A stretch of DNA of 64,000 bases from Rhodocytophaga rosea. GTDB taxonomy: Bacteria > Bacteroidota > Bacteroidia > Cytophagales > 172606-1. Below, one piece after another: positions 4,399 through 46,145 of the stretch. The stretch is taken from NCBI RefSeq assembly GCF_010119975.1, contig NZ_CP048222.1, forward strand, positions 6,610,501 to 6,674,500. Direction: 5' to 3'. A model generated the notes under the pieces. It made no database searches and was not told the origin of the DNA. It saw nothing but the letters and a program-made list of their open reading frames with translations. The position numbers were made by a program, and so were the translations under genes. How positions within the stretch are numbered: position 1 is the stretch's first letter; each line of letters begins with the position of its first letter.

Positions 4399-5208
4399 TT
4401 ATTTTTCAGTACTGCTTTTGTCGCTGGGTTCCATCTGCTTGCGCATATTCTCAGCAACAATATTATCCGGGATTACATTGCTAATGGCTACCTGCACTTT
4501 ATTTAGTAAGCCAGATACTACTTTGTCTTTGCCTGACATAAGAGCCTCATATCCATCTTTGGCTACTTTAGCCGGATCTCCCAGGTTTCCTTCCCGTACC
4601 AGTTTGGCATCTTCCATATCTGCTTTGTTGAAAAAATCGGTTTCTGTAGCCCCTGGAAGCAAGGCAGTAATGGTAACTTGTGTATCTTTCACTTCATTGC
4701 GGATAGCTTCTGTAAAGGAAGTAACAAATGCCTTGGTGGCATGGTAAACAGCCTGTAAAGGTCCAGGGACTTCACCAGCTATGGATGATACATTCAGGAT
4801 TTTCCCTTCGTTGCGGGCTACCATATCTTTGAGGAAACATTTGGTGAGTACGACATAGGCTACAATGTTCAGCTGAATAATATCCAGTTCGCGGTTGAGG
4901 TCATTTTCTATAAACTCTCCGTATTGTCCTTGTCCGGCATCATTTACTAATACATTCACCTGAATTCCTCTGGCTTTTACTTCTTCATATACTTCCAGGG
5001 GCGCTTCTTTTCTGAACAAATCTTTGGCAATGGTAATCACTTCAATGCCAGACTGGTGGCTGAGTTGAGAAGCAGTTTCATCTAATTCTTCCTGATTGCG
5101 CGCTACTATTACTAAATTATACTGGTCCTGGGCAAATAGTTTGGCTAATTCATAGCCAATGCCACTGGTAGCACCCGTAATGAGTGCATATTTTTGATTG
5201 TTTGGCAT
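4399..5208 (-). CDS. SDR family oxidoreductase
   Basis: A 269-residue classical SDR. TGATSGIG at 11-18 binds the cofactor, NDAG at 89-92 replaces the usual NNAG, and Ser141/142, Tyr155 and Lys159 (YHATK) form the active site. Arg37 after the second strand favours NADPH. The C terminus is a charged tail rich in Ser, Asp and Lys. The family (DltE/YqjQ-like SDRs) acts on many carbonyl or alcohol substrates and no neighbour fixes the role. It is not a recent duplicate of the gene at 3562: outside the motifs the two proteins differ widely. Confidence 0.85.
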   Translation of the reverse strand: MPNNQKYALITGATSGIGYELAKLFAQDQYNLVIVARNQEELDETASQLSHQSGIEVITIAKDLFRKEAPLEVYEEVKARGIQVNVLVNDAGQGQYGEFIENDLNRELDIIQLNIVAYVVLTKCFLKDMVARNEGKILNVSSIAGEVPGPLQAVYHATKAFVTSFTEAIRNEVKDTQVTITALLPGATETDFFNKADMEDAKLVREGNLGDPAKVAKDGYEALMSGKDKVVSGLLNKVQVAISNVIPDNIVAENMRKQMEPSDKSSTEK

Positions 5209-5299: not shown

Positions 5300-5719
5300 T
5301 TAGCTAAGGCTGGGGTAAAATCTTCAAAGTATCCAACTAGTTTTTATATGGATGGGAAATAAGCTTTTAAGTATTCATACACACCTTCTGAGAATGAAAA
5401 ATATTATTCTAAGCTCAGCAAAACTGTTTCTATGTAAGACAAAATAAATTCTAAGTCCGTTAAAACAATTTCTAAGCTCGTCGGATATGTTTTTATGAAC
5501 GACAAAAGTATTTCTATGTGTGAGAATTATATTTCTAAGTGCGGCAAAAGTATTTCTAAGTCTGCAAAAAATATTTCTATGTGTGAGAAAAGTACTTCTA
5601 AGTCCGTAAAAAGTATTTTGAGGTGCGGAAAAAGATATTCTATGTCCGATATAACTCTTTCTATGAGTGCTATATAGTTATCTAAAGGCAGGAATAGTTT
5701 TTTTAAGAACAGACAATGA
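5300..5719. repeat. Degenerate 21-bp tandem array, about 20 units
   Basis: Units of exactly 21 bp follow one another without spacers; a representative unit is ATTTCTAAGTGCGGCAAAAG plus T (starting at 5531). The best copies span 5405-5719 (15 units) and clearly diverged ones extend left to about 5300. Because 21 is a multiple of three, the array reads as heptads in any open frame: on the minus strand units read LLPHLEI, FFADLEI, LFSHIEI, LFTDLEV, LFPHLKI; on the plus strand KSISKCG-like heptads. The minus frame is broken by one stop near 5525. It is either a decayed heptad-repeat coding region or a non-coding minisatellite. Confidence 0.8.
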
Positions 5720-5805
5720 AATAAATACAACTGGAACTTTGACTTTCTGCAAATGACTTGTGTTTTGAAGCAACCATCATAGATTATGTAGTGTACTGGT
5801 AGTTT

Positions 5806-7020
5806 TTATTTTTCCCACTCTTTTAAAGCTCTGATTTTTCTTTTAATGTTTCTATCAATAAAATTATAACCTAAGTCTAGTTTGATCAAAGTATTATTGT
5901 TACTCATAAACTCGTAGAACCTGCCATCGGTATTGATAATAGTAACTTCCCTGTCCTTGCTTTCGTCTATATCAAATAAGTCATTAAAAGATACATGATA
6001 CGTCGGGGAGAAATTTACATTCGTTGGTTTAGCAGTACCTAATTCCTGCCATAACAGAAAAGCTTCTGTTTGCTTCATATCTAAGATGGAATCTGTTTTA
6101 ATAAAGTCAAAAAAGCGTAAGTGCTGGTAAAAGGGCAAACTTTCCTCAGTTATTTTCTCTATGTTGGTCGTTTGGTAAGCAAAGTAAGCAGGAATAAATG
6201 CCCATACTAAATGGGGAGGAGCAGACATTTCGCTATCTACAACAGTTTTATAAATACTTTCTTCTTTCATAAAACTGGTCGTATTGATGGTTGGATGGCT
6301 GGTTATATAATCCGGGTAATAGGAAGTCTGTAGATTCTTTGGGTCTGCTTTATTATATTTATGAAAAAGATAGGCTGTGAACTCTTTAGATAATTTACCC
6401 CGGTAAAAGCCTTGTTTCCCATTATTTCTATCTTCATAGAATAATATTTCTCCATTTGAATGAATACTCGTACTCTCGATTGGACACATATAACAGGAAG
6501 TAGAGAAAATAATCCTATCGAAGTTTGGTAAGCTATCCGGCTGAGAATGCAGTTTGCGAAAAGTTAATGGGATACTATCGTTATATAACAGAACTAAGGT
6601 ATCTGGTACTAATTTCTTGATAAGAAAAGTTTGAAAAGTATCATTTACCTTATGAAATAGCCTAAGCGTATCATAATTAAGTGTATACTGAGTGAAGTTA
6701 CCCAGATACTTTGCTGTATACCTTTCTTCTGAACGGTTAGGAGTTATTTCAACAAAGCCTTTAAAATAATCTAAGCTATCCGGGTAAATACCAAAGCCAA
6801 AAGGTTGCTGTAAACTGGCTAATGATTGTGGAGGAGGAGGAAGAGATGGTGGTATAGGTATTTCAAAACTGTCTTCTGAAAGCCAGATGGTATCATATTT
6901 ATTCGTTAGTTGTTCTTCAGTCAGTCTTATCCAGTCTCCTAAAAGCAAATTATTAGTAGAAGGCTCAGGTTCCTGGCAAGAAAACAAAATGAAAACCAAG
7001 AATAGAATGCTGTATTTCAT
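5806..7020 (-). CDS. Hypothetical lipoprotein, DUF6438-like segment
   Basis: A 404-residue protein. The first 15 residues end in the lipobox LFSC, so Cys15 is the likely lipid anchor. Around residues 168-225 the text IIFSTSCYMCPIESTSI, then SNGEILFYEDRN and GFYRGKLSKEFTAYLF resembles DUF6438 proteins, which carry a similar Cys-x-x-Cys-Pro turn followed by a short beta meander; this match is from memory and moderate. No function is known. The 21-bp array begins about 85 bp past its stop. Confidence 0.75.
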   Translation of the reverse strand: MKYSILFLVFILFSCQEPEPSTNNLLLGDWIRLTEEQLTNKYDTIWLSEDSFEIPIPPSLPPPPQSLASLQQPFGFGIYPDSLDYFKGFVEITPNRSEERYTAKYLGNFTQYTLNYDTLRLFHKVNDTFQTFLIKKLVPDTLVLLYNDSIPLTFRKLHSQPDSLPNFDRIIFSTSCYMCPIESTSIHSNGEILFYEDRNNGKQGFYRGKLSKEFTAYLFHKYNKADPKNLQTSYYPDYITSHPTINTTSFMKEESIYKTVVDSEMSAPPHLVWAFIPAYFAYQTTNIEKITEESLPFYQHLRFFDFIKTDSILDMKQTEAFLLWQELGTAKPTNVNFSPTYHVSFNDLFDIDESKDREVTIINTDGRFYEFMSNNNTLIKLDLGYNFIDRNIKRKIRALKEWEK

Positions 7021-46036: not shown

Positions 46037-46145
46037 AATTTATATTTCCTAAAAAATGCTTAGGTAGGAATTAGCACCTTTCTTATGGGTAAGTAGGTTG
46101 CCAGAAGTTCACAGAGCCTATTCTCTCCCTTCTTCTGTATAAACC
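46037..46145 (-). promoter_or_regulatory. SAM-I (S-box) riboswitch
   Basis: Read on the minus strand: P1 GGTTTATA pairs with TATAAATT at the far end (with G-U pairs). P2 AGAAG/CTTCT encloses the AGGGAGAGAATAGGCTC and TGTGAA internal loop. Then come the conserved GGCAACC, a short P3 hairpin (CTTACCCATAAG), the core AAGGTGCTAATTCC, and P4 CTAA/TTAG. Order and conserved blocks match S-box RNAs, which bind S-adenosylmethionine. It lies about 260 nt upstream of metY, the first gene of a methionine operon, exactly where this class is expected. Confidence 0.9.

Follow-up and report, generated by a model that had tools for sequence, protein, structure and literature searches.

Arrays of 21-bp direct repeats beside genes of one protein superfamily suggest a putative protein-and-DNA pairing on bacterial chromosomes

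In plasmids, iterons are tandem direct repeats that lie beside replication-initiator genes, and the ParR-parC and TubR-tubC centromere arrays are built from repeats shorter than the 21-bp units described here. Like iterons, the arrays that we analysed are direct tandem repeats of about two helical turns and adjoin a gene whose product presumably binds them. They resemble the two partition systems in setting an array of short sites by the gene of a small protein, here putatively DNA-binding, for which cooperative assembly would be expected. A search of the open-licence PMC literature returned no description of such arrays or of the PQLLE protein family discussed below. The nearest report describes intergenic TAACTGA heptamers in Beggiatoaceae, Cyanobacteria and some Bacteroidetes, many of them ahead of start codons, and interprets those before start codons as a post-transcriptional, RNA-level element (PMC4679880). 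The heptamers are like our arrays in being intergenic direct repeats, often before start codons; they differ in having identical 7-base units that the abstract ties to no single protein family, whereas the present units measure 21 bp, are degenerate and are linked to a gene (PMC4679880).

The window, that is, the whole stretch of 64,000 nucleotides analysed, carries at positions 5301-5720 an array (array A) of about 20 in-phase 21-bp units, decayed at the edges, whose core TTTCTAWG reads on the plus strand. Its clear part (5406-5678, plus strand) comprises 13 units without insertion or deletion and has the consensus TTTCTAWGTNYGNNAAAANTA, which is also the unit consensus across arrays A, B and C of the same genome (see below). 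Five weaker units precede the clear part and two follow it, and the step is always exactly 21 bp. Identity at lag 21 across 5300-5719 is 0.546, whereas 2000 mononucleotide shuffles give 0.287 +/- 0.022 (z 11.9); at lag 42 it is 0.59, and at all remaining lags from 14 to 49 it does not exceed 0.36. The claim of the first-pass annotation that some twenty head-to-tail units of exactly 21 bp occupy the space between two genes was thus borne out, in a single phase. Unit-to-unit identity of about 62% explains why Tandem Repeats Finder called only 5500-5663. Within the unit, conservation is higher at columns 1-8, 12 and 15-18, and columns 10, 13, 14 and 19 are almost random. An Rfam scan of the window gave two matches, none of them at array A, and a promoter and terminator scan showed no excess. 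Elsewhere in the window, a SAM riboswitch lies at 46037-46145 on the minus strand (RF00162, 82 bits).

Both genes flanking array A are on the minus strand. One (4399-5208) encodes a short-chain dehydrogenase/reductase of 269 amino acids, turns its 5' end toward the array and, on present evidence, is outside the array system; the other (5806-7020) encodes a 404-aa protein with a DUF6438 domain and turns its 3' end toward the array. A genome of the same genus (G001) has an orthologue of the DUF6438 gene, 62% identical, on a contig (L046) without a 21-bp array; since no dehydrogenase gene adjoins it, the locus does not serve as an empty-site comparison.

The unit recurs in two other arrays on the 8.98-Mb contig of this genome: array B near 6,767 kb and array C near 573 kb. 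One cognate array is thus about 150 kb away from array A and the other 2.9 Mb away if the contig is circular. Array B is flanked by genes for an HtrA-type protease and a C25 peptidase; the flanking genes of arrays A and B, and a phosphoesterase gene by array C, all have ordinary Pfam domains. The units run against both co-directional flanking genes at array A and along with them at array B. Comparison of 47 units (13 from A, 19 from B and 15 from C) disclosed none that was shifted and no indel. Units of the same array have a mean identity of 0.622 and units of different arrays one of 0.619; the column-information profiles correlate in all three pairings (Spearman 0.77, 0.86 and 0.75), and the conserved columns are identical. 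Unit identity shows no clear decay with the distance between units, array B being an exception at its far end. With the free columns near saturation, the core kept and the length fixed, these features point to selection for a short core and for spacing, as opposed to slippage followed by neutral drift.

Searches with the unit sequence reached few other genomes. BLAST with array A against 39 genomes, its own included, gave matches in its own genome alone, and array A matched nothing in the phage and plasmid collections. A trimer model (R1) run on 59 genomes, again including the own one, placed 16 matches with values of 1.6e-8 or better in arrays A, B and C; an additional match in this genome (0.04) and those in 43 other genomes (7e-4 or worse) were treated as noise. 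Across 395 genomes of the phylum, the unit pattern occurred in the own genome and once, singly, in G345, where Tandem Repeats Finder recorded no array and no family homologue was present. When nothing but the DNA unit was used to scan genome contigs, 19 stretches came up, with true arrays in two organisms, Sporosarcina sp. P13 and the Bacteroidota MAG bin86(7d). Sporosarcina sp. P13, a member of the Bacillota, has 114 pattern matches and very regular 21-bp arrays (L050 5713-6195; L053 6094-6618; L054 3442-3858 and 5151-5633) whose unit, TTTCTATGAGCGCG......., is close to the one described here. No family gene was detected in the nine stretches (eight regions) from this organism, nor genome-wide at E <= 0.01. 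Since its arrays were found by pattern, they possibly represent convergence. The MAG has two arrays of the same unit, one solitary (L066) and one gene-linked (L060), and the gene beside the latter is a homologue of the gene adjoining array C (32% identity over 244 amino acids).

The gene adjoining array C (571,985-572,722; L105) encodes a protein of 246 amino acids and is followed downstream, after about 440 to 510 bp, by the array. The protein received no assignment from Pfam or NCBIfam, and the conjecture that it might be a DUF6261 protein was not borne out. With a first protein profile, 395 genomes of the phylum were searched and three proved to have the family, this genome being one; in another of the three (G306), a 21-bp array built from another unit stands about 200 bp upstream of the family gene. 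Twelve of the 16 proteins in alignment A5 match the NCBIfam model NF052641, "PQLLE family protein", at E <= 0.001. The model itself has matches at 1e-5 in 10 of the 395 genomes, five of them above its cut-off. The array C gene scores E 0.0011 and 18.7 bits, far under the curated cut-off of 80 bits, and is therefore a remote relative as opposed to a member. Profile comparison gave E 2.7e-13 between its own group and the G306 group, and 3.6e-14 and 7e-7 between the G306 group and two PQLLE-type groups, controls with reversed sequence giving 0.067 or higher. By this chain of intermediate profile matches the array C gene joins the PQLLE superfamily, for part of which the name already exists, with no function attached in NCBIfam. 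Four family genes come from this genome; the other three (L160, L191 and L192) form a separate group, which hhalign connects only moderately with the G306 group (E 1e-5) and with that of the array C gene (E 0.04).

Family proteins are mostly 200-260 amino acids long. In two groups (nine proteins, the own one not included) the halves of the protein align with each other (hhalign E 3e-12 and 6e-15), indicating that the protein consists there of two copies of a module of about 105 amino acids. The family alignment has a single invariant column (Q173 of L060). Isoelectric points are mixed, exceeding 8 in 20 of 39 proteins and being strongly acidic in some. Searches for DNA-binding domains recognised none with confidence in the family; the nearest matches were weak and came from single proteins, as with the winged-helix model HTH_MCM7 (E 9e-4, 1 of 16). 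An AlphaFold model of the MAG protein alone showed helices only and, at pLDDT 36.5, was unusable. Against PADLOC the family proteins matched only Cas7d (E 0.0073, 2 of 16), and the loci do not qualify as defence arrays; viral contigs searched with profile A3 and a plasmid collection searched with the L107 protein gave no match. In G081 the C-terminal extension of one family member (L138 360-1532) resembles what we take to be an Fn3-type domain, so that the module may presumably occur in fusions too. In G276 a gene whose start resembles what is presumably a Cas9-type RuvC domain (L106:2-736) is separated by about 750 bp from a family gene with its weak array.

The association between gene and array was surveyed starting from the protein, with profile A3 in 98 genomes from the order to which G306 belongs (three with matches), with NF052641 in 395 genomes (10 with matches) and with profile A5 in 11 chosen genomes (nine with matches at E 0.01). 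From gene content and the named MAG, the surveyed genomes would belong to the phylum Bacteroidota. Each locus was scored by its best 84-bp window, summing the identities at lag k and lag 2k for k from 13 to 34, with a threshold of 0.5. At 33 of 40 distinct family genes from 16 genomes the statistic for k = 21 reached at least 0.5, with the array within about 1.5 kb; leaving out the array C and MAG loci, both reached via their arrays, the count is 31 of 38. The same level was attained by 3 of 100 pieces from five control genomes, 7 of 100 from the own genome, 8 of 85 from G306 and none of 35 control loci; by Fisher's test, 31/38 has p about 1e-20 against either background. Twenty-one was the top period at 35 of the 40 genes, the exceptions being L126, L139, L199, L200 and L206, as compared with 12 of 100 control pieces, 23 of 100 own pieces, 15 of 85 pieces of G306 and 5 of 35 control loci; this background is probably raised in part because 21 is a multiple of three. 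The first-pass annotation had proposed to look for similar arrays in relatives. The unit of array A was not found by sequence in the 38 or 58 other genomes searched, and other units with the 21-bp period appeared once the protein was followed.

Seven of the 40 genes scored below 0.5: L126, L132, L192 (0.49), L200, L204 (0.49), L205 and L206, the last being the sole same-genus homologue tested. Two doubtful homologues in G003 and G005 (L148 and L149), which lie inside 557-aa frames, match at E 0.003 with profile A5 and 1.8e-5 with the widest profile and have no array, were dropped from the counts; with both the figure is 33 of 42. Locus L160 had entered the survey via an array in a random stretch of the own genome. 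Duplicate views were merged (L107=L108=L142, L133=L143=L106, L129=L110, L136=L113, L128=L202, L151=L112, L144=L105, L145=L060, L152=L203, L146=L204, L147=L205, L150=L206 and L153=L192). Control genomes G034, G050, G060 and G345 had no family match, G042 being outside the family search, and the control stretches (400 kb) yielded no family gene. Among the seven own-genome pieces at or above 0.5, the clear intergenic arrays are those at L160 (14039-14328), upstream of a family homologue, and L162 (16902-17361). The rest fall within open frames 185 to 397 codons long (L156, twice, and L171), are ambiguous (L167) or reflect a 7-bp repeat (L158). The latter, nine copies of CGTAATT at L158:219-281, recalls the TAACTGA arrays (PMC4679880).

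At the 33 array-bearing genes the array is on the 5' side in 29 cases, 27 of them within 550 bp of the gene, and on the 3' side in four: the own L105, L060 and L203 of the MAG, and L201 of G306. Contrary to the rest, the subfamily of the array C gene (L105, L060 and L203) thus has its array 3' of the gene. When weak signals are included (n = 39), there are 33 arrays on the 5' side, four on the 3' side and two overlapping the gene; L132, counted among the 40, is left out of this tally as its gene position was not located, and for L127, L134, L135 and L141 distances run to the edge of the profile match instead of the start codon. Paralogues of one genome (G306, the MAG and the own genome) mostly carry different units with the 21-bp period constant. 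Some solitary arrays have a close counterpart next to a gene: arrays A and B agree with array C at 0.89 and 0.90, MAG L066 with L060 at 0.94, and L189 with L113 of G306 at 0.95. Five of nine solitary arrays compared had no match among the gene-linked arrays of the set (own L162; G306 L175, L181, L182 and L184). The array at L162, near 3.717 Mb of the own genome, has a unit of about AAGGCTNTGTACANATTCAGC and lies between genes that look by eye like those of an oxidase and a lipoprotein. Protein and unit similarity co-vary weakly over 34 arrays (r 0.25); a Mantel test gave r 0.24 without the ascertained L060 (0 of 5000 permutations) and r 0.20 when only different genomes were paired (1 of 5000).

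Several alternatives were weighed against these data. Slippage does create tandem arrays, unit sequences vary from locus to locus, and 18 of 28 arrays (array C counted among the 28) lack column heterogeneity at the 1% level, the other 10 showing it, all of which would suit a neutral minisatellite whose linkage to the gene family is incidental. This alternative, which the first-pass annotation had kept as its fallback, is largely contradicted already and we consider it very improbable. Arrays A, B and C display neither uniform divergence of columns nor tolerated indels nor a greater likeness within than between arrays; the 21-bp length is strict despite saturated free columns, distant cognate arrays share one column profile, and genes are linked to arrays at 33 of 40 loci against 3 of 100 in the background. 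Even less credit is due to the notion that array A is the relic of a heptad (coiled-coil) protein gene. Twenty-one bp do make seven codons, and open frames exist as announced on both strands (5527-5730, minus, 67 aa; 5495-5677, plus, 60 aa), but the codon-phase test contradicts a coding origin. In the most open frames of array A (0, 1 and 2 stops) third positions fall on the more conserved columns, and column information summed over arrays A, B and C by column modulo 3 is 16.1, 27.5 and 26.9. Frames with third codon positions on the free columns have 9 stops on the plus strand and 15 on the minus strand per 91 codons in the 13 clear units; arrays B and C have 16 and 13 such stops on the plus strand and 20 and 18 on the minus strand. 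Substitutions are therefore not concentrated at the third positions of an open frame in any of the three arrays; with the free columns in one codon phase and the frames there filled with stops, neither strand bears a trace of purifying selection on a protein, and the open frames are a by-product of the unit sequence. The surmise that the period itself matters is supported, 21 bp being fixed in 47 own units and in arrays of unrelated sequence beside homologous genes elsewhere; its coding variant is not.

Two further alternatives retain the link with the gene. The array might work as RNA, its transcribed repeats being bound by the linked or another protein in post-transcriptional regulation. Most arrays stand just upstream of the linked gene and could sit in its leader, and the nearest published repeats found, those before start codons, are so interpreted (PMC4679880). 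Such a role is nonetheless unlikely: folding of array A is not strong on either strand (z +0.7; z -1.7, with 7 of 200 shuffles as good), the differing direction of units relative to flanking genes at arrays A and B leaves no common transcript strand, and L105, L060 and L203 of the own subfamily have the array on their 3' side. A slightly smaller chance is given to a protein that makes or spreads arrays, as by-product or selfish element, instead of reading them, solitary arrays being scars or copies. Genes and arrays co-occur, solitary and gene-linked arrays have units in common, and in several arrays likeness is greater at lag 42 than at lag 21, which is a mark of past duplication; against this, the family matched no enzyme and its alignment offers just the one invariant column, and adjacent units of the own arrays are no more alike than distant ones, hence little sign of recent amplification.

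We favour, at somewhat better than even odds (about 0.55), the reading that array A is a solitary member of a set of three cognate arrays and a row of sites for the 246-aa protein encoded beside array C. This protein would bind one site per 21-bp unit, i.e., per two turns of the helix. Such spacing would put all sites on the same face of the DNA, allowing the protein to assemble along the array, and the two modules of each protein might cover the two turns of each unit. An array next to its gene may serve autoregulation or local assembly, controlling the linked gene in cis, and solitary arrays such as array A may be sites in trans at which the protein assembles and organises or regulates the chromosome. 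The assembly might act in chromosome organisation, in segregation or in the regulation of neighbouring genes.

Binding sites of this kind would depart from the plasmid systems in several respects. No Rep initiator gene adjoins the array, the family shows no Rep domain in Pfam, and no plasmid match came from the L107 protein or array A; unlike iterons, the present arrays go with several paralogues per chromosome, units only about 62% alike and distant solitary copies. As to ParR-parC and TubR-tubC, several distinct pairs are present here per genome, and inspection by eye of the open frames adjoining the array C gene revealed no partition NTPase.

The occurrence of arrays beside one superfamily in many related bacteria suggests a protein-and-DNA pairing that has not been described. 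It is conceivable, at a little under even odds, that these loci represent a new class of chromosomal protein-DNA pairs, in which fast-evolving two-module helical proteins, several per genome, each read a private 21-bp array, sequence being free and period fixed, and in which solitary cognate arrays enable a single protein to work at loci far away, e.g. to bridge or organise the chromosome. Should proteins and arrays pair physically, a large bacterial phylum would harbour orthogonal systems of protein-DNA recognition that form a class not yet described, each genome having several specificities, under the unusual rule that spacing is fixed and sequence free. It would also account for intergenic repeats that yield only spurious small open frames, and new array-based DNA tags may come from such pairs. 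Finally, a protein family having only a name would acquire a testable function.
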